From a virus: 21,953 nt of DNA. Positions 1-15,289 of the stretch are shown one piece after another. Where the stretch lies: positions 1-21,953 of IMG/VR virus record IMGVR_UViG_3300018421_000252; one strand, given 5' to 3'. Within the stretch, counting starts at the first letter, position 1. Each line of letters opens with the position of its first letter. Under the pieces are notes generated by a model. The model had not been told where the DNA came from. It saw only the letters and a list, made by a program, of their open reading frames with translations, and did no database searches. The translations under genes and the position numbers were made by a program.

Positions 1-747
1 ACCGCCGCCTCCACCGCCACCTCGACCGTCACTTGGTGGTTGAGATCCTCTGTTTCCTCCGCGATAGCCGCCGCCACCGCCACCTGAACCTGATCTGTCG
101 CCTCCTGGACGACCACCATCCTGTCCATGAGGACCACTTCTTCCACCCTGTGTTCCACCTGGCGAGTTACCATTTTGACCATTACGGTCTCCACCGCCAC
201 CTGAGCCTGCTCCGCCACCTTCTTGGCCTGAACCGCCGCCGCCTCCGCCTGAAGCGTGTAGCATTGTGTTGTTATTTGGTGCTAGGAAGAATGTGCCAGC
301 ACCGCCGCCACCTCCTCCGCATGAACATCCGGAAGGACCAGCATTCATACCATTACCACCGCGACCTCTGCGTGGACCTCCTCCACCGCCTCCGCCACAG
401 CAGCCATTAATACAACCACCGTTGCCATTACCGCCACCGCCGCCGACGCTTACATAATATCTACCGTTTGAAACTGATATATTACCGTAGGCTGATTCCA
501 CGTATGATCCGCTGCCGCCTCTAGGACCACGACCGCCATTACCGCCGCCTGCTCCCCATGATAAAACTTCTACTGTTGCATCATCACCTGTATCACTAAT
601 GTCAAACTGTGTTCCTTGCTGTCCTGCGTATCTATGATATTTCCATGTTCTTCCACCGATAGTCTGTGTTCCAGTGGAACCACCATTGGCTACTAGTGGT
701 TTAAATCCGCCTCCACCTGCGCCTGCTAAAATATTATAGTGTGTCAT
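1..747 (-). CDS. Glycine-rich putative tail-fibre adhesin (C-terminus beyond window)
   Basis: The frame stays open from an ATG at 747 to the left edge, giving 249 residues without a stop; the C-terminus is missing. AGAGGA lies 8 nt before the ATG, and a late-type promoter (CATAAATAT) lies about 40 nt upstream. Residues 1-100 form an ordinary N-terminal part with a short motif WGAGGG at 64-69. From about 101 to 249 the protein is mostly glycine, in runs of 3-7 broken by N, S, R, P and D. Five cysteines sit in two clusters: C112, C116, C117 and C141, C143. Known family: polyglycine-rich distal adhesins of T4-like phages (the gp38 type of T2/T6/S16) fold glycine runs into packed polyglycine-II helices whose loops contact the receptor. 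The assignment to that class is inference from composition and from its place at the end of a fibre cassette. A glycine-rich virion protein with another role is possible. Confidence 0.8.
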   Translation of the reverse strand, partial: MTHYNILAGAGGGGFKPLVANGGSTGTQTIGGRTWKYHRYAGQQGTQFDISDTGDDATVEVLSWGAGGGNGGRGPRGGSGSYVESAYGNISVSNGRYYVSVGGGGGNGNGGCINGCCGGGGGGGPRRGRGGNGMNAGPSGCSCGGGGGGAGTFFLAPNNNTMLHASGGGGGGSGQEGGGAGSGGGGDRNGQNGNSPGGTQGGRSGPHGQDGGRPGGDRSGSGGGGGGYRGGNRGSQPPSDGRGGGGGGG

Positions 748-782
748 TTACAGTCCTCTTGCAATATATAATGTGCTACTAT

Positions 783-1955: not shown

Positions 1956-1963
1956 TATTTATA
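1956..1963 (-). promoter_or_regulatory. Canonical T4-like late promoter TATAAATA
   Basis: The minus strand reads GATATAAATAACT, with an exact TATAAATA. It lies 20 nt upstream of the 109-aa gene start, leaving a leader of roughly 10-15 nt. The TAA stop codon of the 2563-aa gene (1961-1959) lies inside the element. Confidence 0.75.
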
Positions 1964-4900
1964 TCAAAAAGTATTGGAATGCCAACGGAACGCCCGTTAC
2001 ACCCTTCTTGAACTCAACCGTTGCGTTAAATGTTATCGGTGATTGAGTAGTGGTTGTAATTACATTGTTAAAGATGTAAATCGAACCTGCCGTAACACTG
2101 TTCACGTTTAGAGCAGCACCACCGCCACCAATTTGTGAACTGATATATGCCTTAATTGCTCTCTGTGTTGGAACAACACTGTCACTGTTCTGTGTAAAGA
2201 ACGGATCTGTTGAGAATTCAGTAATACTTGCTGATCCTCCACCTAGTGTAACCTCACCCAGTGATAGTTCCTGTAGTCCTGAAATATTAAATGCATCAGC
2301 ATTCAATGTTGCAACACCAGTTGACTGTTCAATTGTAAACAAGTCACCAACTCTAAAGTTACCATCTTGGTCAGTTGACGTGTAGAACACTCTACCACCG
2401 TTACTGTCCTGTGTTTCCTTGGACTGATCTGGATCCTGCGTAGGAGTATTTGGATAGTTTGTTTCTGTGAAACTACCAGTTCCTATGTCTAAGAAGTCGT
2501 GTCCTGTCAATCTAACCTGAGAATATAGAATTCTTGTTGTTACAGTTGTTCCATCTGGTGGACTGTCAAACACTGTTATATCAGGTGCTACCTGGAAGAA
2601 TGCTGTGTATGAACCATCATATTGTCCAAGGAATGTTAATACCTGAACCAGTTTAAATACTCTGTCTGGTAAGTGGCTGAATACAACGTTTGAACCAACC
2701 GCTGGTCTTTCTGTTAATCTTCTTACAGCAACAAAACTACCGTCCTGGAAGAAGTCAGCATAACCGTCACCAGTATCAAGATCAGCACTTGCCGAAACAA
2801 ATCCTGTTCCTCTGTTAACGAATGATGGGTTAGCCAACACACCCTTACCAGTTCTTACTGTTGTAGGTGCTTCGTAAGTGTTGTTAGGATCAGTAATTGT
2901 GAGTGTTGGTGCACTTGTGTAACTTGATCCTGGTTCAATCATTCTAATTTGGAAGATCTTCTCGTCTGCAACAAATGCTCTTGCTCTCGCTGTAGCACCT
3001 GCCTTGGTTAAACTTGCAACGGTTCCTGATCCGGCTTCAACTGATACAAATTTACCATCCTGATCTGGATTACCAAATGCACTTGCTACGAAACCATTTG
3101 CACTTGTGCTTAGTGTTCTTGAAGTCCAAACAATACCGTCTTCTGATGTAGCACCAGTGTTATCAGTATCAGTTACTGCAAGGAAAACGCCCTGTCCGTA
3201 TTCAACATGCGTCCAATCCTTAGTTGCCGGAAGCGTAGTTTCTGTCCATGTAGCACCGTAGTCTATTGACACTGCTGCTAGTGTTCCAGTTGTGCTAGAA
3301 ACTGCAACGAATCTGTTGTTACCCCATACCACGCTATTCCAAGATGAGCTAGATAATCCTGTTCCAGCACTCCATGAAGCACCGTCATCATCCGAGTATG
3401 CAACGTCAGCATTGGTGTCCGAAATAACAACCCATCTGCCACCACCGTATGCAACGCTTGTCCATGTTCCAGTTGCTGGCAATGCGCCTGCAACAGCACT
3501 CCATGTAACGCCACCATCCAGCGTAATTGCTGCCTGTGTGGTTCCTGATTTGACTGCCATCCATTTACCGTCACCGTATGCAACGTCTGACCATGAACCT
3601 GTGCTTGGCAAGTTACCACCAGCACTCCAAGTAACACCGCCATCTATCGAATAAGCAGTGTCATCAACGCCAGTGCCGCCTGCTATTGCCACAACGTGTG
3701 CAGCATTAGGTGTTGCCTTACCAGCAATTGATGTAAATGATCCTACGCCTGTTGCGGTAAATGTATTTCCTAGTTGACCCACACCACCAATGGCATCCCA
3801 TGGTGTGTCACCCGTTTCAGTGATTGTGTATGATCTTCCTACCGTAAAGTTTCCTGCACTTTCTTCTGCTGTTAGTTTACCACCTGCAATTGCATTCCAA
3901 GTAGTTGAAACTGGTAGTGGAGTAGATGCTGACCAACTGTCTCCATCTGCGCTCAAGTTAATGGTATTACCACTTGCACTTGGCAGTGCAATAAAGTTAC
4001 CACCATCGCCATAACCACTAAAGTCAAATGCCTGAACAGCACCGTTAGCACTGTTTACAGATGTAATGGTAATTGTTAGATCGTTACTAGCCGTTCCATC
4101 TAGAGTAGATCCATTAATTGTAACGGTATCCAGTCTAGCATAGCCAGTTCCGCCTGTGTTAAGTGTTACAAGATATTTTGTTCCCTTCTTAACAATATCA
4201 AACGTAGCACCCGTTCCGCTTCCTGAAGTTGAACTCTGTGCTGTGTTAATATATGATGTATAGTGCGGAGCATATGTAACATCATCCCAAGTAGTCGATG
4301 TTGATAATGTTTTAGCATCCGAACTAAACGCAGGAGCAGTAAATGTTAATCTTGGTTCAATTGTGTAGGTTGATGAAGCATCCGGAGCAACAATTGTTGT
4401 TCCTGGAACTATATGATCCCATCCTGATGCACCCGTAGTTTCCTTGTTAACGGTTGCAATCTTGGTTCCTGAATTGTATGTTGCAATTATACCAAACTGT
4501 CCAACGCCTGTTCCGCCAGTAACGTAAATTTTCATGCCAACGTATGCTAGGCTTGATCTTGAATCAGTAGCAGCAATCGTAATTTGGCTTGTTGTTCCGC
4601 CCTGTGCAGTGTTTGATGCAGTAACATATCCAAAACCACCAAAGTTACCATCCGCTTCCGGAGCACCTGTTGAATCGTCTACGTTATCTGGTAATCTAAC
4701 GCTGTGAACAGCATCATCACGGAATTCGTCTGCTTCAATTACCTGTCCTGAACCAGCACCAAATATTCCCCATTCCGCTTCTGTGTATTCAATACCAGCA
4801 TTGTCAAATTCCAATTGTAATACTTCGTCAGCACCGTCAGTAAACACGCTACCAGCAACTGCCTCGTATTGGAATTTGTTATCAACTATTGAAGTTTGTG

Positions 4901-7900
4901 GAGTTTCATCAGGATCAAATCCTTCAGCAACCGAACCAAAGTCACCGTATGAGTTGTTACCATTAGTTCCTCTAATTCTACCACCTGCTTCTGCAAGATA
5001 ACCAATGTGTGAGTAGTATGTAAACACAGAAACAAGTTCTGCTCTACCCTTATTAGTAACCCAAGCACCAATACCGTCCGAAATTACCTGAGTAAAGTCG
5101 TTGGATACGATCGAATCATTACCGCCATTGTGCAGTGCGCCATCAATCTTCTGACCAACTGCTGCATTACCAAATGTAGTAACGCCCTGAACGTATGGTG
5201 AACGTGCAATAATCCATGTTCTAAAGTCTGCTGGTCCCCAACCTGGATCAAGTGAAACATAAGATCCAGCAGTTACTCTTGATGTTCCATAATCGTTTTC
5301 AGGTGTAAGATCACCGTTTAATCCGTCCAGTGTTTGGTTTCTAATACCAGTTCCGTTGCGAACATAATACATGTCCTCTTCGTGTGAACCAAGAGCAGCA
5401 TTTACATAGTATCTAGCAACATAGCGTGACTTGTAGTTTGAAGTCCATTGTAGATCCCATTTAAGTGCATCAATGTATGTGTCAACATCTCTTAGACATA
5501 ATGTTTCGTTGTAAACTAATTCAACGCCCATGCTTCCTGATGCCGTGGTTAGTGTGATAGCAGCAGTTGCATTTCTAACAACACCAATCTTGAATGTAGT
5601 TGAACTCACAACGTTCTGAACATAATATGTTGTGTCTGCATCTATTCCACCGAATGTAGTTCCAGTAAATTTAATTGCTGCATTTCTAACCAACCAACTA
5701 GTGTCTGATATTGTAATTAAATCAGTAGTTGCAGTTGTGTCTGTTGCAGTATCACTGTAAGTGTCATCGATGTATGCAGTAACTTCTGCCTTGATGAATG
5801 CTCTGTTTTGTTCTAGTTTTAATCTTGCGTAATCTCTAACACGCAGTTCAGTTTGACAAATCGCACCTTCGTCAGTTGCTGCAAAAATGATTGTGTCCAG
5901 AGTATCCATTAGTGTTGTTACTCTAGAATCAGCAGTTGCATCACTGTTTAGATATGTTGCAGTGTCTCCTGAAATTGTGTCTGCCAAATATTGATAAGCC
6001 GCTCTAGTCGCTGTTTTTTGGCTTAGTTCAAATACTTCTGTTGCACTGGATCTTAAGTAAGATTGTGCAGCAATAGTAGTAGCAAAATTACTGTTAAACA
6101 TAAAGTCAAACATTACTGCTTCAAGTATGATTCTAGTATCTCTTTCACACTTGGCAACATTGTATGTTAAACTAGGATACTGTGCAGCAATATAATTTGT
6201 TACCGCTGTAACAAGTGTTTCCTGCTGTGCATCCAGTGTTTCTGCTGCTGTAATTAATGCAGTTGTTGATGAAACACCATTTGTTGCTGCTGGCATTTGA
6301 ACCACGTGTGCTGGAACTGTTTGGCTCGCAGCATTTGTAATTGTCAGTGCCGATCCACCAAATGTTGTTGAAACAGTCAGTGTTGTGGAAGCAGGAGTAG
6401 ATACTACCCAGTATGTTAAATCTTTTGTTAGTTCATTTACAGTTTCTAACGGTATAAAAATATCACCTACACTTAATCCGTGTGCGGAAGAAGTTGTAAT
6501 TACGTTAGATGTAATGTCTGTAATTGTTACCGCAGGAAGATCTGCACCTGTAGAGTCACCAGCAATAGAATTATAAATTGTTTCTAGATTTGTCTGGACG
6601 GCACTAATGGCCCCTGCTGATGCAGCAGTGTCTCTATATTGTGGAACAGTGTCCTGGTTAGCAGTAACTAATCCGTTATTTAGAATTGTAGCAACAACAT
6701 TTTGCAATCTAAGGTGCATTGCAAGAGTTTCAGTCTTAATGCTATCAGGAATTAGTGAAGTTGAACTTTCGCCATCCCAGTATGCTCTTGCAGCAATCAC
6801 TGTTTGATAGTTGCCGCCATATGTTAAATCGTAAATTAATGCATCAACAATATGTCCAACATCTTCTTTTGTATCAGTCTTACCATATTTTAAGTTAGGA
6901 TAGTTAACAGTAAAGAATGCTACCATTTCTTCCTGTAGGAATCTTTTGTTTTCCTCAAGAAGTTTTCTAGCATCACCATAACCTACCAAGTAAGATGAAT
7001 TATAACCTGTTGGATCAGCCGATGAAACATTGTGTTTCGTTCCAAGTTTATAATCAGCACGCTGTTTCATTACACCAACTAGTTTTGACACTAGTGGGTT
7101 AGTTTCTGAATCATCTGCTGTTGGCCATGTTTGATCCTGTGTCTCAGTGTTTCCTGATGTAGGAGTAACTGAACCACCCGATACAACATTACCAATGAAT
7201 GACTCAATATGATTAAATGTGCCAATTGTGTAGAAAGAATCACTTACATCAAGATTTCTATCTGATGCAGCAGCAGCCTCAACTCTAGTTGATCTAATTT
7301 CATCACCTAGTATACAAGTCTCTGCAGGAACAATAATAGGTAATACTTCCTTGTATTGTCCAGCCTTAACATTAATTAAAACGTTAGGAACATTTCTTTC
7401 AGGTATTGCACTTGTGTCGCCTGCTGTAATAGTATCCGTAACTATTGCAAGCAACGATTGAATTGTTGTGTATACACCAGTTTCTGCTGTGTAGTCTGTG
7501 TTGATGTATTGTGCAGCAACAGCAGATGAGTCACTAGCATCCTGATAGATTGTATCAGGAGCGGTGTTGTTTAACACATTTCCAATAATAGTTTCTAAGT
7601 AAGCATAAGCAGCAGTTGACTGACTTGCTTCGTTGCTTAAACCAGCACCGTAAACAACATCCTCATCACCACTTGAAAATTCGCCGTCAGCACCAAGACC
7701 GCCCACAAAAGTAAGTGCAGCCGCTCTAGTTTTTAGGTTACCGCCGTGCGTGATATCCCAAATTAATCTGTCTATGATAAATCCAACGTCTCGTTCACAC
7801 TTGTATTCATCATAGTCAAATCCTGACCAAATGCCTGAACCGCCTGCGACCTGTGCTTCAATCCAACTTGAAGTTTCTCTTTGCAAGAAAACTCTGTTAA

Positions 7901-9650
7901 GTTCTAAAAGGTGTGCTGCCTGAGGATTTCTTGCACCATTTTCCACTTGCTCACAGGCATATCTAATAGTTGCCCATGGTTTATCAAGTGTGGTTCCTCT
8001 TGTAGGAGCAGGACTGTCAACACCATTTGTTGAAACATAATAAACTTGATCAACCTGTCCTAGCGTTGTCCATTCAGGAATAGTTCCGTTTGATACTAAA
8101 ACCTGACCTTCTTGGCCGATTGGTAATCTAGTTGGACCCGCACCCGAGTAGTAAACCATATCACCCTGTGTTGTAAGAACACTTGTTTCACTACCAATTG
8201 TTAGTGTGTTCCAATATGTTCCTGTAATATCCTGATCCGGACGAGAATTATCTGCACCACCGCCTTCTGCGCCAATTGTTGATCCGTCATCACCTTCTGA
8301 TCTGTGTGCTAACACACAAATGAATGCGTTTGAACCGTATCTTACTGTATCGCCTAGAATGTATTCTACGTCATCCTGCCATTCGCCTCTCCAATTGATA
8401 CCACTGTTTAATTTGTCCCAGTAAGATGTATTTGGAGGAGCAACTGCCGTAATTCCTGTCATCGAACCACTTGCTGTGGTTGGTGAAAATGCAGTTCCGC
8501 CTGGCTGTGTTGAAATAGTAAAGTTTGTTCCGTCTACAATGCTCTTGATGTAGTATGATGCACCCGCAAACACATTACCAAATGTAGTCCCACTAAAGAT
8601 AATCTGTGCGTTTGCTACAAGCGATGATGTGTCACTTGTTGTAAAGTTACCCGTTGCATTGTCAGTTGCTGTAATTGTAATGGATTCAGATGCGCTATCA
8701 AGTTTTGCTCTGTAGGTATATCCACCCATTCTAACAGCATCACCGATTTTGTAATCTGTTGAAATATCCCAATCCGATTGGAAATTAAAATTCTTAGAAA
8801 ATAGATCCCAATCCGATGCTGAAGTAGTAGGAACTGCACCAGTGCTTACTGTTTTTGCAACATATTGATTACCACCATATGATACAATATCACCTATCTG
8901 GTATGTAGTTCCTGATGCCCAATCACCTTCATTTTCAAAACCTTCAACAAATTTAGTCCACTCACCACCTGTGTAGTCAGTATTAAAATCTGCTGCCGCT
9001 GTGTGTGCTGTAGCAGCAATGTAAAGTGAAGCGCCTTCTTTTACAACATCATTAACTTTGTATCTAGTTGCAGTTACCCAAGCACCCTTGTAGTCTAATC
9101 CCTGTTGGAATTCATCCCAGTATGCTGTATCTGCTTCAAGACCTGCTGATGTTGTTGCTTGTGAAGTGTGTCCTGAAGTTGCAATGTATGAAATACCGCC
9201 ATACTTGACTACATCATTAGTTTTATATCTAGTTGTTGTAGCCCAATCGCCCTTGTATTCAATACCTTCTGCAAACAAATCCCATTTTGCGTAATCCGCT
9301 TCCAGTCCAGTGGTAGTTTCTGCACCCGGTGCGCCTGATTCGCTTGAAGCATTTGACGTATGGCCCAAATTGGCAATATATAACAAACCGCCATACTTAA
9401 CAATGTCTCCAATTTTATAAGAAGTTGATGTGTTCCAATCTCCAGTCCATACTTGGCCATCTGTCATTTGGCTCCATTTGCTTGGACTGTATTGTAAATC
9501 CGTGTTAAAATCTGCGTCTGAAGTGTGACCAACAGCACATATGTATGTTTTACCACCAAATCTAATAACGTCATCGACGTAGTAAACAGTGGAAGGAGTC
9601 CATTCTCCCTTCCATACAAATCTAATTCTACCTAGTTTAAATTCTGCCAT
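1959..9650 (-). CDS. Giant modular tail-fibre/host-recognition protein, 2563 aa
   Basis: This is the largest gene in the window and a paralogue of the 1860-aa gene just upstream. Domains in order, with approximate residues: seven repeats of the form W..sT.Y..gD.V.yGG..Y....HTS at 1-488, resembling carbohydrate-binding modules of chitinases (ChtBD3/CBM5-12 type); a beta-solenoid-like entry (AGQYKEVLPI, GDEIRSTRVE) at 755-790; four copies of a helical module starting near 577, 893, 1133 and 1273; a conserved core with RSPYVQGVTTFG, GQKIDGALHNGG and SNDFTQVISDG at 1430-1582; six Asp-box-like repeats (SIDGGVTWS type) at about 1878-2213; and a C-terminal region with TGHDFLDIGTG, FYTSTDQDGNFR and VVPTQRAIKAY at 2375-2515. 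No catalytic residues can be assigned. The start at 9650 has only a weak ribosome site (GGAT), and a short overlapping reading frame precedes it. The likely role is glycan binding at the tail or baseplate; this is inferred. Confidence 0.9.
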   Translation of the reverse strand: MAEFKLGRIRFVWKGEWTPSTVYYVDDVIRFGGKTYICAVGHTSDADFNTDLQYSPSKWSQMTDGQVWTGDWNTSTSYKIGDIVKYGGLLYIANLGHTSNASSESGAPGAETTTGLEADYAKWDLFAEGIEYKGDWATTTRYKTNDVVKYGGISYIATSGHTSQATTSAGLEADTAYWDEFQQGLDYKGAWVTATRYKVNDVVKEGASLYIAATAHTAAADFNTDYTGGEWTKFVEGFENEGDWASGTTYQIGDIVSYGGNQYVAKTVSTGAVPTTSASDWDLFSKNFNFQSDWDISTDYKIGDAVRMGGYTYRAKLDSASESITITATDNATGNFTTSDTSSLVANAQIIFSGTTFGNVFAGASYYIKSIVDGTNFTISTQPGGTAFSPTTASGSMTGITAVAPPNTSYWDKLNSGINWRGEWQDDVEYILGDTVRYGSNAFICVLAHRSEGDDGSTIGAEGGGADNSRPDQDITGTYWNTLTIGSETSVLTTQGDMVYYSGAGPTRLPIGQEGQVLVSNGTIPEWTTLGQVDQVYYVSTNGVDSPAPTRGTTLDKPWATIRYACEQVENGARNPQAAHLLELNRVFLQRETSSWIEAQVAGGSGIWSGFDYDEYKCERDVGFIIDRLIWDITHGGNLKTRAAALTFVGGLGADGEFSSGDEDVVYGAGLSNEASQSTAAYAYLETIIGNVLNNTAPDTIYQDASDSSAVAAQYINTDYTAETGVYTTIQSLLAIVTDTITAGDTSAIPERNVPNVLINVKAGQYKEVLPIIVPAETCILGDEIRSTRVEAAAASDRNLDVSDSFYTIGTFNHIESFIGNVVSGGSVTPTSGNTETQDQTWPTADDSETNPLVSKLVGVMKQRADYKLGTKHNVSSADPTGYNSSYLVGYGDARKLLEENKRFLQEEMVAFFTVNYPNLKYGKTDTKEDVGHIVDALIYDLTYGGNYQTVIAARAYWDGESSTSLIPDSIKTETLAMHLRLQNVVATILNNGLVTANQDTVPQYRDTAASAGAISAVQTNLETIYNSIAGDSTGADLPAVTITDITSNVITTSSAHGLSVGDIFIPLETVNELTKDLTYWVVSTPASTTLTVSTTFGGSALTITNAASQTVPAHVVQMPAATNGVSSTTALITAAETLDAQQETLVTAVTNYIAAQYPSLTYNVAKCERDTRIILEAVMFDFMFNSNFATTIAAQSYLRSSATEVFELSQKTATRAAYQYLADTISGDTATYLNSDATADSRVTTLMDTLDTIIFAATDEGAICQTELRVRDYARLKLEQNRAFIKAEVTAYIDDTYSDTATDTTATTDLITISDTSWLVRNAAIKFTGTTFGGIDADTTYYVQNVVSSTTFKIGVVRNATAAITLTTASGSMGVELVYNETLCLRDVDTYIDALKWDLQWTSNYKSRYVARYYVNAALGSHEEDMYYVRNGTGIRNQTLDGLNGDLTPENDYGTSRVTAGSYVSLDPGWGPADFRTWIIARSPYVQGVTTFGNAAVGQKIDGALHNGGNDSIVSNDFTQVISDGIGAWVTNKGRAELVSVFTYYSHIGYLAEAGGRIRGTNGNNSYGDFGSVAEGFDPDETPQTSIVDNKFQYEAVAGSVFTDGADEVLQLEFDNAGIEYTEAEWGIFGAGSGQVIEADEFRDDAVHSVRLPDNVDDSTGAPEADGNFGGFGYVTASNTAQGGTTSQITIAATDSRSSLAYVGMKIYVTGGTGVGQFGIIATYNSGTKIATVNKETTGASGWDHIVPGTTIVAPDASSTYTIEPRLTFTAPAFSSDAKTLSTSTTWDDVTYAPHYTSYINTAQSSTSGSGTGATFDIVKKGTKYLVTLNTGGTGYARLDTVTINGSTLDGTASNDLTITITSVNSANGAVQAFDFSGYGDGGNFIALPSASGNTINLSADGDSWSASTPLPVSTTWNAIAGGKLTAEESAGNFTVGRSYTITETGDTPWDAIGGVGQLGNTFTATGVGSFTSIAGKATPNAAHVVAIAGGTGVDDTAYSIDGGVTWSAGGNLPSTGSWSDVAYGDGKWMAVKSGTTQAAITLDGGVTWSAVAGALPATGTWTSVAYGGGRWVVISDTNADVAYSDDDGASWSAGTGLSSSSWNSVVWGNNRFVAVSSTTGTLAAVSIDYGATWTETTLPATKDWTHVEYGQGVFLAVTDTDNTGATSEDGIVWTSRTLSTSANGFVASAFGNPDQDGKFVSVEAGSGTVASLTKAGATARARAFVADEKIFQIRMIEPGSSYTSAPTLTITDPNNTYEAPTTVRTGKGVLANPSFVNRGTGFVSASADLDTGDGYADFFQDGSFVAVRRLTERPAVGSNVVFSHLPDRVFKLVQVLTFLGQYDGSYTAFFQVAPDITVFDSPPDGTTVTTRILYSQVRLTGHDFLDIGTGSFTETNYPNTPTQDPDQSKETQDSNGGRVFYTSTDQDGNFRVGDLFTIEQSTGVATLNADAFNISGLQELSLGEVTLGGGSASITEFSTDPFFTQNSDSVVPTQRAIKAYISSQIGGGGAALNVNSVTAGSIYIFNNVITTTTQSPITFNATVEFKKGVTGVPLAFQYFLI
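3010..4020 (-). repeat. Six Asp-box (sialidase-like propeller) repeats in the 2563-aa protein
   Basis: Six units of about 42 residues each carry an Asp-box-like S.DGG..W motif (SADGDSW, SIDGGVTW, TLDGGVTW, SDDDGASW, SIDYGATW, SEDGIVW). Each is followed by a strand of the form W..VaYG.g.fvaV. Six units fit a six-bladed propeller. The first unit is split from the second by an inserted module near residues 1930-1972. Confidence 0.7.
5400..5834 (-). repeat. Helical module copy D of the 2563-aa protein (interrupted)
   Basis: Fourth copy of the helical module, at residues about 1273-1417: LEQNRAFIKAEVTAYI, then CLRDVDTYIDALKWDL, then NYKSRYVARYY. It is split in the middle by a roughly 70-residue insert containing FTGTTFGGIDADTTYYV and LTTASGSM. 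Confidence 0.65.
6051..6254 (-). repeat. Helical module copy C of the 2563-aa protein
   Basis: Third copy, at residues about 1133-1200. It keeps the spacing of the other copies, with LDAQQETLVTAVTNYIAAQ, then CERDTRIILEAVMFD, then NFATTIAAQSYL. Confidence 0.65.
6777..6974 (-). repeat. Helical module copy B of the 2563-aa protein
   Basis: Second copy, at residues about 893-958: LLEENKRFLQEEMVAFF, then KEDVGHIVDALIYDL, then NYQTVIAARAYW. The cysteine seen in copies A, C and D (CxRD) is replaced here (KED). Confidence 0.65.
7701..7922 (-). repeat. Helical module copy A of the 2563-aa protein
   Basis: First copy, at residues about 577-650: LLELNRVFLQRETSSWIEAQ, then CERDVGFIIDRLIWDI, then NLKTRAAALTF. 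It is followed by a second helical stretch that also follows copies B and C. Confidence 0.65.
8200..9620 (-). repeat. Seven CBM-like repeats at the N-terminus of the 2563-aa protein
   Basis: Seven units of roughly 50-70 residues match W..sT.Y.igD.V.yGG..Yia...HTS; examples are GDWNTSTSYKIGDIVKYGG and GDWATTTRYKTNDVVKYGG. Several are nearly identical in their cores. The seventh is set off by an insert carrying FSGTTFGNVFAGASYY. Confidence 0.7.
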
Positions 9651-9706: not shown

Positions 9707-12700
9707 TTACCCTTTCATTCCTTTATAGAACAGTGATTCAGCGATCCAATGACCACTTGCACCTGCTTGGTCTCCCACAAAGTCGACCCTAACAGGGAAA
9801 CTGATTTTAGTGCCAGCAACGTTGCTTATTTCCGAAGGTCCTACCTTAATTACACCAGCAACAAAGTTGGCCGTTAATAGATCCGCTCCACCAACGTTCA
9901 ATCTATTCTGTAAGTAAGATTTAATTGCTCGTTGTGTAGGAACAACATTGTTAGAATCCTGTGTAAACAGTGGATCTGTTGAGAATTCTCTAACAACTGC
10001 TCCACTACCACCAAGTCTAACTCCACCCAATGCTAATTCTGTTAGACCCTGTAGGTCAAAGAAGTCAGCACTGATTGTTACAATACCAGTGGCCTGTTCA
10101 ACAGCAAATAATTCACCGCAACGGAAGTTACCGTTTTGGTCTGTTGCTGTGTAGAACACTCTACCACCGTTTAATTCCACGATCTCATTTTCTGGTGCGC
10201 TGTTAAAGAAGTTACCAGATGAATATAAAGTTGGATAGTTTGTTTCCACAAAGTTACCCGTTCCTACATCTAGGAAATCGTGTCCTGTAATTCTAACCTG
10301 AGAATATCTTTCTCTAATTTCTACCTGTGAAGTATGCTCCAAGAAGTAGTTCAAATCAAACTCAGGTGTCATTCTAAATCTTCCTGTTAGAGTTCCATCT
10401 ATCTGTGTGCTTTCAAGCGTTCCGGCTTGAACAGTATAGAAGTCTTCCTCACCTCTAAATCTAAACTGTGATCCAGGACCAGGAATGGTTGCCAAACCGC
10501 TCACATACACAAACTTACCTTCTGGAATTTCATCAGCATAACCATCTCCAACAACTGTTACGGTAGTTGACGATGTTCTATATCCAGAACCTCTGTTTCT
10601 CCATCCCGGTTGGCCCAATACTCTGTCATCCATTCTCATTTCTATGTATGCGTCAGCAGTATTGTTAGGATCCGTAATTGTTATCGTTGGAATGCCTCCT
10701 GCATAACCGCTACCAACATCCCACAGTCTAATGTGTTTGATGCTTCCTGATTCTACCCATGCTCTACCTTTGGCACGGCATCCAGTTTCAATCTTGGCAC
10801 CGTTTTGGCTTGTGGCAACTGCCACCCAAATGCCTGTGCTGTTAGATTGTGTTGTTGAGTCTCCTATTGATATATCTGGATTACCAAATCCTACAGCAGT
10901 CCAATTTAATGCTTCAGGCATTGCTCGTTCAGTCCAAAGGACTCCGTCCTCGGTTGAAGTGGCAAACGTTGAAGGACCTCCTGTTGCGTCAGCAAATATA
11001 TCTCTTCCGCCCGTATCACCAATGGCAATGAACACGCCCTGTCCATATCTAATCTGTTTCCAATAGTGGGCAGTTGAACCATCCTGTGTAGGAAGTGCCG
11101 TTCCTGTTATCCAACTATCTCCTCTGTCTAGGGAGATTGAAACATCACCCTGTGTGGATACTGCGATGAATCTGTTGTTTCCGTAGGCAATCGATGACCA
11201 ATCTCTCTGCGAACTGTCAGCAATCACATCCATGAGCTGGCCCTGCCATGACCATGTATTCGTAACGCTGTTATATTCACCGTGTGCCGTATTGTTACCA
11301 GAGTTTGCCAATGCAATGAATCTTCCCTGACCGTATGCAACATCAACCCAGTTGTTAACCGTTGAATCGCCTATATCAGGCAGTGTGGTTGCAGACCAAG
11401 TTGCTCCACCGTCCGTGCTGTATGCACCCTCATCGCCAGTGCTTGAAACTGCAAGGAATACGCCCGCACCAGTTGTTGATTTACCATAGGTTACGCTTTC
11501 CCAACTTGAATTTCCAGGCATCGCAACATCAATCCAATTTAATCCATCTCTTGAATATGCTGCTCTGTCGCTGTCCTTTCTTATGGCAACAAAATAGGTT
11601 CCGCCTGCTGCTAGGCTGACCCAATTTCCTGCATCAGGAAGTGTAGTCGATAGCCAATTGTTGGCATCTTCCGAATATGCTACATGACTACTATCACTTG
11701 TAACTGCAACATATCTACCACTTGTGGCAATACCACTTGCTCTGATTGCCGTAATTTGATTGGTGCTGTCCTCTGATGTTTCAAGAACGTTAACCGTTAT
11801 ATCGTTTTCTCCATCAACACCGCCCATGCTTGAACCTGTGAGTGTCAATATCTGTCCTGCTTCGTATCCCGCACCACCGTTTTGAATTGTTACTGTGTAT
11901 TCTCTGCCAACCTTTTCAACGGTAAATTCAGCAGCGGCTGGTGTTACGTCTTCTGCAACATCGCCCGTTCCAGCCTGGCCCTGGATACTGTTGTAAATTT
12001 CTCTAGTTTCTCCATAAACAACGGCACTGTAATTTGCATTTGTTTGTAAATTTAGAATTCCTGATGTGTATCCTGGATGGCTAAATGTTACTCTTGGTTC
12101 AAATCTATATGTGTTGTCAGTTAATAGAATTTCTTTAATAGGTGTTCCAGGAATGATATGATCCCAACCAGGAGTATCATCTGATTCCTTGCTAACATTT
12201 AATACTTTGGTTGCTGGATTGTATGCCGTTACATAACCATACTGTCCTGCTCCCTGTCCACTGGTTAAAATAATTCTTAAACCCAATAAATCTTCTTCGT
12301 CATTATCATCAGCAGTTGCCAGTGTTGCGGTAGTGGTTGTTCCACTCTGTAGATTATTACCGTCCAAGAAGTAACCCAAGCCGCCTTCGGTAGCACCAGT
12401 ATCTCCCGGAGGATTTTTTATGAGTGCTTCGGAAAGTGCATCGTCTCTTGTTTCTTCATGCATCGCAGATGCATCTACACCAGCACCTGTAAACGTATAA
12501 TCAGCATATGAATAATTTCCGCCTGCATTTCTATATTCCAGTATTAGAATTTCATCGCTGACTTCTCCGGAAAATGCTGCTTCGACTGTTGCCTGTCCAA
12601 CTCTGTTATTGACCTCTGCATATGCAGGAGTTTCCGTAGGATCATTACCATCAGCAAGAGTTCCAAAGTCACCATATGATGAGTTACCGTTCGTAGCACG

Positions 12701-15289
12701 AATGATTCCGCCTCTTTCTGCAAACATACCTATCTGTGCATAATAGGTAAACACTGATACAAGTTCTGCTCTACCGTTGTTCAATACCCATGCACCGATA
12801 CCATCGGATATGACCTGTGTAAAGTCATTTGAAACTATTGATTTGTTACCACCGTTATGCAGTGCACCGTCAATTTTTTGTCCTACACAGTTATCACCAA
12901 ACGTGGTAACGTTCTGAATGTATGGAGAACGTGTGGTAATCCATACTTCTTCGTGATCTGGACCCCAACCTGGATCAAGAGATACAAATGCTCCTCCCGT
13001 TGGTCTTCTGTATAATTCGTATGCTTCTGGTGGATTTAGCGTTCCGCTCAATCCTTTTGTTGACATGTCTCTTACGCCAGTTGCATCTCTACAATAGAAC
13101 ATGTCGTCTAACTTGGAACCATTAACTTCATTTTTATAGTATCTTGCTTCTAGAAGTGTTCTGTAGTTACTTGTGTATCTTGTGTCATAGATGAATGCGT
13201 TAACATAACCTCTAATTCTTCTTTTTAGATCGACAGTGTTACCAGTATAATCCTCATATTGCTCAACTAGATAGCGTGCAATTTCTTCAGCAATAAATTC
13301 TCTGTTTGCTTCCAGGATTGTCTTGATGTTCATGTATTCCTGTGCATCAACATTTAGATCCGCATTGTAGTTGTCAACGTTTGTTCCCGTAACTGTAGGA
13401 TCAGTTCCATCACTTGCTAGATAAAAGTCAATGTATTGTTTTGCATCGTCAATTAGGTCCGCAATGTATGAAATCTTATCGCTTGCTACTGGAGTTCCCA
13501 ATCCGCCCAATGCATCTCCTTCGAATGTTGTAACCTGTGTTTGTTCATTTCCTGCAGAAGGAGTTATATTTGTTAAATTTAGAATGGGGTCAATGATTGT
13601 TGCAAGATGATTCAGTGCTTCCGTATTATAAGTTCTGTCACCGCTTAGGCTTGCATCCGCTTCATTTGGTTTAACAGTAGTTGATCTTAGTTCGTCACCA
13701 GTAATGGCAACGCCTGCTGGAATCACTATTGGAAGTATTTCCTTGTATTCACCAGTTGCTACCTTAATTCTATATAGATTAGGTTCAGCCTGATCTCTCA
13801 CATATTCAGTTGCATACTTAATTGTCTTGAAGGGTTTAAATTCGTCAATACCTCTTCTAGGATCGTTATCGTCAATACCATTGGTAGCAACAAAAATAAA
13901 TTTAGGTGTTCCACCAAATGTTTCGTAACCGATCTGTTCGTCTGCCTGTATCTTAAGCAGTTCGTCCTGATTACCAATTGGTATGCTAGTTTCACCAAGA
14001 GTAGATCCGTCTCCTGCGAGCGTTCTTGAAAGATTGTATGTTAATAGGTCGCCTGGTGAACTTAAACCCACACCGTCGCCTGCTTGAATTACAACTTCCC
14101 AATATTCGTATCCGCTTCCGTTATCACCCGGAAAGTTTTGATCGCTTGCAATGTGCTGTGTTGTGCATCTCCACAAGCCGCCCTTGAACAATACTAGATC
14201 ACCCAATGCATACATGACACCTTGTGTCCATGATCCAGCATAATCATCGCCTGGTAGGAAAATTTCCCAGTTACTCGTATCTAGATAATCAAGTGTGCTA
14301 CCATCAGATGCCGTAATTGTATCAACCTTCGCTACGTATAGATATCCGCCTCTGTATACAACATCACCAGTCTTGTAAGTTGTGTCAGGTGCCCATTCTC
14401 CTGCAAGATTAATTCCATTTACAATCAGGCTCCATTCAGTTCTTGGAGATGGTTGATCGTATAATGATGTTGCAGGATTTACATTTGTATTATTTGTATT
14501 TGCTCTATAAATCTTACCACCGTGTCTAACGACATCACCTACAGCATAGTATGATGTTGACATCCACATGCCTGCAAATCTATTTCCTGGAAATTCTACG
14601 TTACAAAAAGCAGAGTCAATTGAAACACCAGCCGTGTGTCCTGTGAATACTCTTAGAATACTACCGCCATACTTGACCAAATCATTTAGTCTATAGCGTG
14701 TTCCCTGTGCCCATTCGCCTGTATATCTAATACCTTCGTTGAATACTTCCCATAACTCACCACTACTATCTTCTAGTGAGTCATTGTTACCAATCTCAAT
14801 ACCCTGTTCAGTAGTTCCTGAAGTATGTTCAGCAATTGCGATGTAGATGTTACCACCATATCTTACCAAATCTCCCACACCGTATCTTGTTGTAGGCTGC
14901 CAATCGCTGGTCCAATCATACAAGGAAACATAAACAGCAAATTTATTTGCATTTTCAAGGAACGTTGTTCCACTCTGGTGGTTTTCAATACAAATATAAA
15001 CAACACCACCATATAATATTAATTCACCAGCACCAATTGGAGTGTCTGATGTCCACTCTCCAGTCCATTTTCGACCATCGGTCATTTTTAACCAAGCAGG
15101 TGTTGGTGCAGAATCTCCTGGATTTGCTAGATAGGTTTGGTCGTTTGCAAATGCGCCGGATGTGTGCTGTCTTACGCAGATGTAACTGTTACCTGCATAT
15201 TCTACTACGTCATCCTTGTTATAATCACGTGAAGTTTGCCATCCTTGTCGCCAAGTGTATCTAAGTCTGCTTATCTTAAACTCTGCCAT
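9707..15289 (-). CDS. Giant modular tail-fibre/host-recognition protein, 1860 aa
   Basis: This is a divergent paralogue of the 2563-aa protein encoded next. Domains in order, with approximate residues: seven CBM-like repeats at 1-400 (GEWAQGTRYRLNDLVKYGG is typical); a solenoid-like entry (TGEYKEILPI, GDELRSTTV) at 505-541; one helical module at 655-720 (LEANREFIAEEIARYL, NYRTLLEARYY); the conserved core at 733-886 (RSPYIQNVTTFG, GQKIDGALHNGG, SNDFTQVISDG); a GG.GY beta module at 1120-1167; six Asp-box-like repeats at about 1185-1503; and the C-terminal region with TGHDFLDVGTG, FYTATDQNGNFR and VVPTQRAIKSY at 1661-1801. It lacks three of the four helical modules and the FGTTFG inserts of its partner. 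It starts 8 nt after the 121-aa gene, with AGGA upstream. Its role as a receptor-binding or baseplate-attached fibre is inferred; no enzyme active site is visible. Confidence 0.9.
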   Translation of the reverse strand: MAEFKISRLRYTWRQGWQTSRDYNKDDVVEYAGNSYICVRQHTSGAFANDQTYLANPGDSAPTPAWLKMTDGRKWTGEWTSDTPIGAGELILYGGVVYICIENHQSGTTFLENANKFAVYVSLYDWTSDWQPTTRYGVGDLVRYGGNIYIAIAEHTSGTTEQGIEIGNNDSLEDSSGELWEVFNEGIRYTGEWAQGTRYRLNDLVKYGGSILRVFTGHTAGVSIDSAFCNVEFPGNRFAGMWMSTSYYAVGDVVRHGGKIYRANTNNTNVNPATSLYDQPSPRTEWSLIVNGINLAGEWAPDTTYKTGDVVYRGGYLYVAKVDTITASDGSTLDYLDTSNWEIFLPGDDYAGSWTQGVMYALGDLVLFKGGLWRCTTQHIASDQNFPGDNGSGYEYWEVVIQAGDGVGLSSPGDLLTYNLSRTLAGDGSTLGETSIPIGNQDELLKIQADEQIGYETFGGTPKFIFVATNGIDDNDPRRGIDEFKPFKTIKYATEYVRDQAEPNLYRIKVATGEYKEILPIVIPAGVAITGDELRSTTVKPNEADASLSGDRTYNTEALNHLATIIDPILNLTNITPSAGNEQTQVTTFEGDALGGLGTPVASDKISYIADLIDDAKQYIDFYLASDGTDPTVTGTNVDNYNADLNVDAQEYMNIKTILEANREFIAEEIARYLVEQYEDYTGNTVDLKRRIRGYVNAFIYDTRYTSNYRTLLEARYYKNEVNGSKLDDMFYCRDATGVRDMSTKGLSGTLNPPEAYELYRRPTGGAFVSLDPGWGPDHEEVWITTRSPYIQNVTTFGDNCVGQKIDGALHNGGNKSIVSNDFTQVISDGIGAWVLNNGRAELVSVFTYYAQIGMFAERGGIIRATNGNSSYGDFGTLADGNDPTETPAYAEVNNRVGQATVEAAFSGEVSDEILILEYRNAGGNYSYADYTFTGAGVDASAMHEETRDDALSEALIKNPPGDTGATEGGLGYFLDGNNLQSGTTTTATLATADDNDEEDLLGLRIILTSGQGAGQYGYVTAYNPATKVLNVSKESDDTPGWDHIIPGTPIKEILLTDNTYRFEPRVTFSHPGYTSGILNLQTNANYSAVVYGETREIYNSIQGQAGTGDVAEDVTPAAAEFTVEKVGREYTVTIQNGGAGYEAGQILTLTGSSMGGVDGENDITVNVLETSEDSTNQITAIRASGIATSGRYVAVTSDSSHVAYSEDANNWLSTTLPDAGNWVSLAAGGTYFVAIRKDSDRAAYSRDGLNWIDVAMPGNSSWESVTYGKSTTGAGVFLAVSSTGDEGAYSTDGGATWSATTLPDIGDSTVNNWVDVAYGQGRFIALANSGNNTAHGEYNSVTNTWSWQGQLMDVIADSSQRDWSSIAYGNNRFIAVSTQGDVSISLDRGDSWITGTALPTQDGSTAHYWKQIRYGQGVFIAIGDTGGRDIFADATGGPSTFATSTEDGVLWTERAMPEALNWTAVGFGNPDISIGDSTTQSNSTGIWVAVATSQNGAKIETGCRAKGRAWVESGSIKHIRLWDVGSGYAGGIPTITITDPNNTADAYIEMRMDDRVLGQPGWRNRGSGYRTSSTTVTVVGDGYADEIPEGKFVYVSGLATIPGPGSQFRFRGEEDFYTVQAGTLESTQIDGTLTGRFRMTPEFDLNYFLEHTSQVEIRERYSQVRITGHDFLDVGTGNFVETNYPTLYSSGNFFNSAPENEIVELNGGRVFYTATDQNGNFRCGELFAVEQATGIVTISADFFDLQGLTELALGGVRLGGSGAVVREFSTDPLFTQDSNNVVPTQRAIKSYLQNRLNVGGADLLTANFVAGVIKVGPSEISNVAGTKISFPVRVDFVGDQAGASGHWIAESLFYKGMKG
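10780..11740 (-). repeat. Six Asp-box repeats in the 1860-aa protein
   Basis: Six units carry YSEDANNW, YSRDGLNW, YSTDGGATW, SVTNTWSW, SLDRGDSW and STEDGVLW, each followed by a W..vaYG.g.FiAv strand. Unit 4 is degenerate. The count equals that in the 2563-aa protein. Confidence 0.65.
13130..13327 (-). repeat. Single helical module of the 1860-aa protein
   Basis: One copy of the module found four times in the paralogue: LEANREFIAEEIARYLVEQ, then LKRRIRGYVNAFIYD, then NYRTLLEARYY, at residues about 655-720. It sits directly before the conserved core, the position of copy D in the longer protein. Confidence 0.65.
14075..15260 (-). repeat. Seven CBM-like repeats at the N-terminus of the 1860-aa protein
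   Basis: Seven units with the W...T.Y..gD.V.yGG..Y pattern, for example SDWQPTTRYGVGDLVRYGG and GEWAPDTTYKTGDVVYRGG. They are more divergent from each other than the units in the 2563-aa protein. The repeat number is the same. Confidence 0.7.

Follow-up and report, generated by a model that had tools for sequence, protein, structure and literature searches.

The glycine-rich protein encoded at the left end of the DNA stretch analysed here (the window, itself a linear virus record of 21,953 bases) is probably a distal, host-recognising tail-fibre tip of a marine T4-like phage, built as a TNF-like beta-sandwich with a glycine lattice, and its second loop may be stapled by disulphides; we put the probability of this reading at roughly 0.6. 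TNF-like/glycine-rich fibre tips are a known kind of protein, and what is unusual in this one is a pair of cysteine clusters specific to its lineage.

The gene is an open reading frame on the minus strand that runs from position 747 to position 1, starts with ATG seven bases behind a Shine-Dalgarno-like AAGAGG (755-760, minus strand), and is still open at the left end after 249 codons (MTHYNILAGAGGGG...GGGGGGG, with no stop). Glycine accounts for 99 of these 249 residues (40%) and for 46% of residues 64-249, and the longest run in the window is of seven glycines (residues 118-124), so that the polyglycine composition with runs of up to seven, described in an earlier note on this DNA, is exact. 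The leftward extension that the note had called for was supplied by the IMG/VR contig L002, which overlaps the left end of the window (316 of 320 bases identical) and contributes 46 further residues and a stop (L002:3-461), giving a full protein of about 295 residues. L002 completes a run of eight glycines and ends the protein in ...GQAGCLVIRYPID (also given as NGQAGCLVIRYPID), adding a sixth cysteine, C287. The joined sequence, whose two contigs may represent different strains, was used for counts and profile tests only.

The tip gene has a fixed place, the slot, in the genomes of Kyanoviridae-like myoviruses, behind three conserved fibre-region genes that in the window all lie on the minus strand: those of a 2563-residue fibre protein (1959-9650), of a 109-residue MATGRLG protein (1607-1936; PHROG 11338, tail fiber), and of a 265-residue fibre-region protein (787-1584) that is the slot's constant left neighbour. 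Since direct searches with the tip protein returned L002 as the sole match, relatives were reached via these neighbours. A 51% identical relative of the 265-residue protein led to locus L003, in which a fibre protein, a 108-residue protein and a 297-residue protein are followed by the adjoining 321-residue protein that passes Pfam Gly_rich_2, and the end of the 2563-residue protein was used to collect 80 related loci, 71-83% identical. The 109-residue protein is present in 77 of the 80, and the gene order of fibre protein, 109-residue protein, protein of about 265-297 residues and glycine protein recurs in L003, L211, L214 and L333. Downstream of the tip gene, L002 encodes a 169-residue protein, a 66-residue cysteine protein and a baseplate wedge/fibre connector (PHROG 677), and further on a gp15 tail sheath stabiliser (PF16724) and a virion structural protein (PHROG 11591); the virus is therefore placed among the T4-like myoviruses. 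The best phage matches of the fibre neighbour are to Pelagibacter phage Mosig, uncultured marine viruses and cyanophages. The window encodes two giant fibre proteins (1959-9650 and 9707-15289) with N-terminal repeats of the form WxGDWxxxTxYxxGDIVxYGG and a stretch in which SxDGxxWT-type repeats recall Asp-box/BNR propellers. The 66-residue cysteine protein (L002:981-1181) matches PHROG 13558 and is weakly like DUF6171 (22.5 bits, below the cut-off).

Across the 80 loci the slot holds glycine-type proteins in 42, hyper-cysteine proteins in 16 and neither in 19 (four of which have less than 1.5 kb of sequence downstream), and three loci lack the marker gene; the two types occur together in none. 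Most of the glycine-rich slot proteins that were scanned pass Pfam Gly_rich_2. Some glycine-rich tips of 283-285 residues stand in tandem and bear histidine-rich loop motifs such as GGGCHHH (L226:9299-10150, L254:9300-10151, L268:6014-6865 and others), which, judged from sequence, are possible metal sites in some of them. Genes for 2OG-Fe(II) oxygenases, one of them annotated as a prolyl 4-hydroxylase, lie close to fibre-tip genes in L289 (7550-8182, SfFS3_101) and L290 (Mosig), and hydroxylation of the tips would be a testable idea.

Membership of the window protein in this slot family had to be sought below the level of ordinary detection. Neither the protein nor its pieces gave a usable match in Pfam or PHROG; tblastn against 50,697 phage genomes found no relative of the whole protein and only a chance match (E 6) for its first 111 residues; and a scan of bacterial genomes, like blastn of the L002 end, yielded no relative. 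With no match at the 24.3-bit cut-off of PF21722 the protein is not filed as a member of that family, a cut-off that the slot member in L333 also misses (12.1 bits). Because glycine alone makes naive scores meaningless (against a 10-sequence profile the reversed protein outscored the real one), we compared scores with those of shuffled sequences in which every glycine was kept in place and the other residues were permuted. A profile built from the strand block of 47 slot proteins gave residues 20-112 a score of 32.2 bits, compared with about 17 (sd 4.6) for glycine-fixed shuffles. In three rounds of shuffling that score was equalled or exceeded in 0 of 1000, 3 of 1000 and 2 of 5000 cases (5 of 7000 in total), a p of about 0.0007 that should be weighed with the knowledge that the block was tried once broader tests had given no signal. 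Only the strand block stands out in this way: residues 113-205 and 190-282 were ordinary against such shuffles, residues 144-190 were not significant, whole-length profile scores were no better than those of shuffles, and neither the 10-sequence profile nor whole-length global alignments nor the C-terminal half clearly beat them. The block (residues 57-101, VEVLSWGAGGG...GSYVESAYGNISVSNGRYYVSV; 445-579, minus strand) is the family-specific part of the TNF-like/glycine-rich fold, and its pattern, V-x-V-x3-GAGGG ... GGxGxY ... YxVxVGGGG, is matched by the tip protein. At the other end, GCLVIRYPID fits the C-terminal strand motif (G-x-[VILMCF]3-4 and a short end such as RYPxx), which is found in 74 of 88 complete glycine-type proteins and 5 of 351 background ORFs. 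Slot position, strand block and C-terminal motif together make it likely that the protein belongs to the TNF-like/glycine-rich (Gly_rich_2-like) slot family, though Pfam does not detect it. The PF21722 and PHROG 2295 proteins (in the slot in L003 and L211, and in the related locus L028) share with it the strand block, the glycine loops and the closing RY motif; the window protein differs from them in falling below detection, in the clustering of its cysteines and in the greater length of the loop that joins the second strand block to the third.

For the fold, AlphaFold gave an unusable model of the window protein alone (pLDDT 38), and the slot relative in L211 was modelled from an 18-sequence alignment (pLDDT 66.5, pTM 0.70), with confident strands but not confident glycine loops (pLDDT below 50 at residues 160-183, 200-222 and 238-262). 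The model matches the fibre protein gp24 of cyanophage Pam3 (Z 14.2 over 178 residues, 2.9 Å; Foldseek against 7ypx, E 9e-5), the Bxb1 tail tip (Z 11.4) and the glycine-rich ligand-binding domains of ALK/LTK (Z 8-9.3), and unrelated chains score below 5. The slot proteins are accordingly assigned the architecture of a TNF-like beta-sandwich with a glycine lattice, as in Pam3 gp24 and ALK/LTK, and the window protein itself would share this fold. In Pam3 gp24, extended glycine loops of a TNF-like sandwich form a four-layer lattice with a spacing of about 5 Å and the variable distal loop ends are proposed as receptor binders; the same paper remarks that the structure resembles ALK and that gp38 has another core (PMC9608196). 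The L211 matches and that description therefore make Pam3 gp24 a better template than gp38. Strand pattern, glycine loops, hydrophobic C-terminal strand and role in the fibre are shared with Pam3 gp24 (PDB 7YFW/7YPX), which, however, makes up an entire fibre including a helical shaft and has its own chaperone, whereas the window tip protein has no shaft; the Pam3 paper mentions neither cysteine nor disulphide (PMC9608196).

These comparisons bear directly on the type of adhesin that the earlier note had proposed, a gp38-type polyglycine protein, which would cap a gp37-like trimer as a monomer and have a beta-helix core and a polyglycine sandwich. Glycine runs, which in S16 gp38 reach eight residues (PMC6851490), and the location at the end of a T4-like fibre cassette speak for it, but the search for gp38 likeness gave no gp38 family match in Pfam or PHROGs and no gp38 chain among the matches listed for the L211 fold, which is of the Pam3/ALK type, and the C-terminal strand motif agrees with that of the TNF-like family; we regard a gp38-type adhesin as highly improbable. 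A glycine-lattice fibre-tip protein at the end of the fibre cassette is thus what survives of the proposal. The gp38 of S16/PP01 (PDB 6F45), with its own beta-helix core and an N-terminal helical cap that docks on gp37, also places a polyglycine lattice tip on T4-like tail fibres, and is best taken as an analogue that works alike, with no kinship implied.

The part of the protein in the window contains exactly five cysteines, placed as the note had them: C112, C116 and C117 form a first cluster (CINGCC; 397-414, minus strand) and C141 and C143 a second (CSC; 319-327, minus strand). This clustering is more than chance. When five cysteines were placed at random, all fell within 32 residues in 0.1% of trials and three fell within 6 residues in 1%; a mirror placement of the two clusters within the loop arises by chance in 14% of cases and is not significant. 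Three cysteines within six residues occur in none of 95 distinct glycine-type relatives, and three within forty residues in 3 of them. A collection scan for CxxGCC-GGGG found no glycine-rich homologue, and one for CSC-GGGGG found none among the matches listed. Among the matches listed there was only a 1506-residue protein of unrelated sequence (L058:3820-8337 and L080:4942-9459), whose linker DCCTCRCRRKPIVGVCRGGCCGGGGGGGG recalls the CxxGCC-polyglycine motif.

When conservation was checked among relatives, as the note had suggested, the clusters were seen not to be conserved in the slot. Its best positional counterpart, the L333 protein (341 residues, 37% glycine, ending in GIVVVRYLL), has no cysteine at all; it lies on a single contig between a fibre protein 81% identical to that of the window and a PHROG 677 protein 62% identical to that of L002. 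The clusters are thus lineage-specific, and the tip is quickly replaced or reshaped. The absence would also suit near-neutral drift, by which glycine codons (GGT/GGC) in a fast-changing loop become cysteine codons (TGT/TGC) by one base and the clusters have no specific role: each of the five cysteines is encoded by TGT or TGC, which a single base separates from the glycine codons used most often there, and scattered single cysteines are common, with at least one in 80 of the 95 glycine-type relatives. Drift alone would not readily explain a clustering seen in none of the 95, nor the 21 of 28 cysteine columns that are invariant in one hyper-cysteine subtype, and the cysteines of the tip protein are no random oddity because 16 of the 80 related loci carry far more cysteine in the slot; we consider drift unlikely, though a serious competitor.

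Both clusters would lie in one loop, between a strand ending near residue 101 (YYVSV) and a strand starting near residue 152 (TFFLAP, residues 152-157; 277-294, minus strand; placed by eye from the pattern), one cluster on the outgoing and the other on the returning limb. The spacings CxxxCC and CxC resemble those of metal ligands, and C112, C116, C117, C141 and C143 might coordinate iron, zinc or copper, either structurally or to engage metal-scavenging receptors. Dense cysteine loops such as CSCCCSCNQNCRHGC (L245) in hyper-cysteine relatives would suit metals, and iron has been proposed in marine phage tail fibres (PMC11705849). The tip protein has no nearby histidine or acidic ligand, however, and no match to a metal-binding family, and we think a metal-binding tip distinctly unlikely.

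Stapling by disulphides is the most likely role of the cysteines because neighbouring limbs in Pam3 lie about 5 Å apart, which is compatible with a disulphide. On this reading the TNF-like sandwich would carry long glycine-rich loops packed side by side into a lattice, like Pam3 gp24, with variable loop ends shown to the receptor that the tip would bind, and disulphides would staple the clustered-cysteine loop once the virion meets oxygen. A precedent for disulphides within a glycine-rich PPII bundle is offered by the antifreeze proteins of springtails (snow fleas), unrelated in organism and function (PMC7033094). Disulphide stapling fits the lattice spacing, but the odd number of cysteines in the loop (five), their absence from L333 and the ease of a glycine-to-cysteine change leave metal binding and drift as alternatives.

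The hyper-cysteine proteins that share the slot deserve more attention than the window protein itself. They comprise 34 distinct ORFs of about 220-550 residues with 13-47 cysteines (47 in L277), usually with two to four copies in tandem, at L209, L212, L213, L233, L236, L240, L245, L252, L257, L260, L263, L277, L278, L280, L282 and L287; one of the 34 (L236:8608-9093) shares bases with a second reading frame, and the two may be halves of a single frame-shifted gene. Their glycine content is usually only 14-24%, and they mostly match PHROG 4205 (function unknown), several of them passing Gly_rich_2 (PF21722). The cultured Synechococcus cyanophages S-SSM7 (L288:6201-8594; SSSM7_114-116) and Sf-FS3 (L289:4206-6619; proteins 97-99) each encode three in tandem, with 25-30 cysteines apiece and annotated as hypothetical, and S-SSM6a has three matching places; no report was found in the literature on cysteine-rich cyanophage fibre proteins. 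The 21 invariant columns belong to a 275-residue subtype, and joint gain and loss of cysteine columns in the family did not single out disulphide partners. The window protein occupies the same slot as these proteins (those of S-SSM7, Sf-FS3, L213, L233, L245, L280, L257 and L263 were compared), but has fewer cysteines (6 in about 295 residues), more glycine and no PHROG 4205 match. Visual comparison places the stretch where their cysteines are densest in the loop that holds its clusters, but a profile test for a specific relation to the family gave a weak fit.

The bacterial host of a phage is decided by its fibre tips. Those with a glycine lattice seem common among marine viruses, yet have received very little study. 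In one slot, related phages carry tips that are free of cysteine, clustered or packed with it, the extreme form residing in cultured cyanophages under the label 'hypothetical protein'. We suggest, tentatively and as a possibility well short of even odds, that cysteine loading in the slot varies continuously: L333 has none, the window protein with its two clusters is an intermediate, and one protein of L277 reaches 47. Cross-linking of the glycine lattice by disulphides or metals would then be a second variable way of hardening and diversifying host-recognition tips. With S-SSM7 and Sf-FS3 in culture, it becomes possible to ask by experiment whether disulphides or metals lock structural proteins that were synthesised in a reducing cytoplasm once these have been released.
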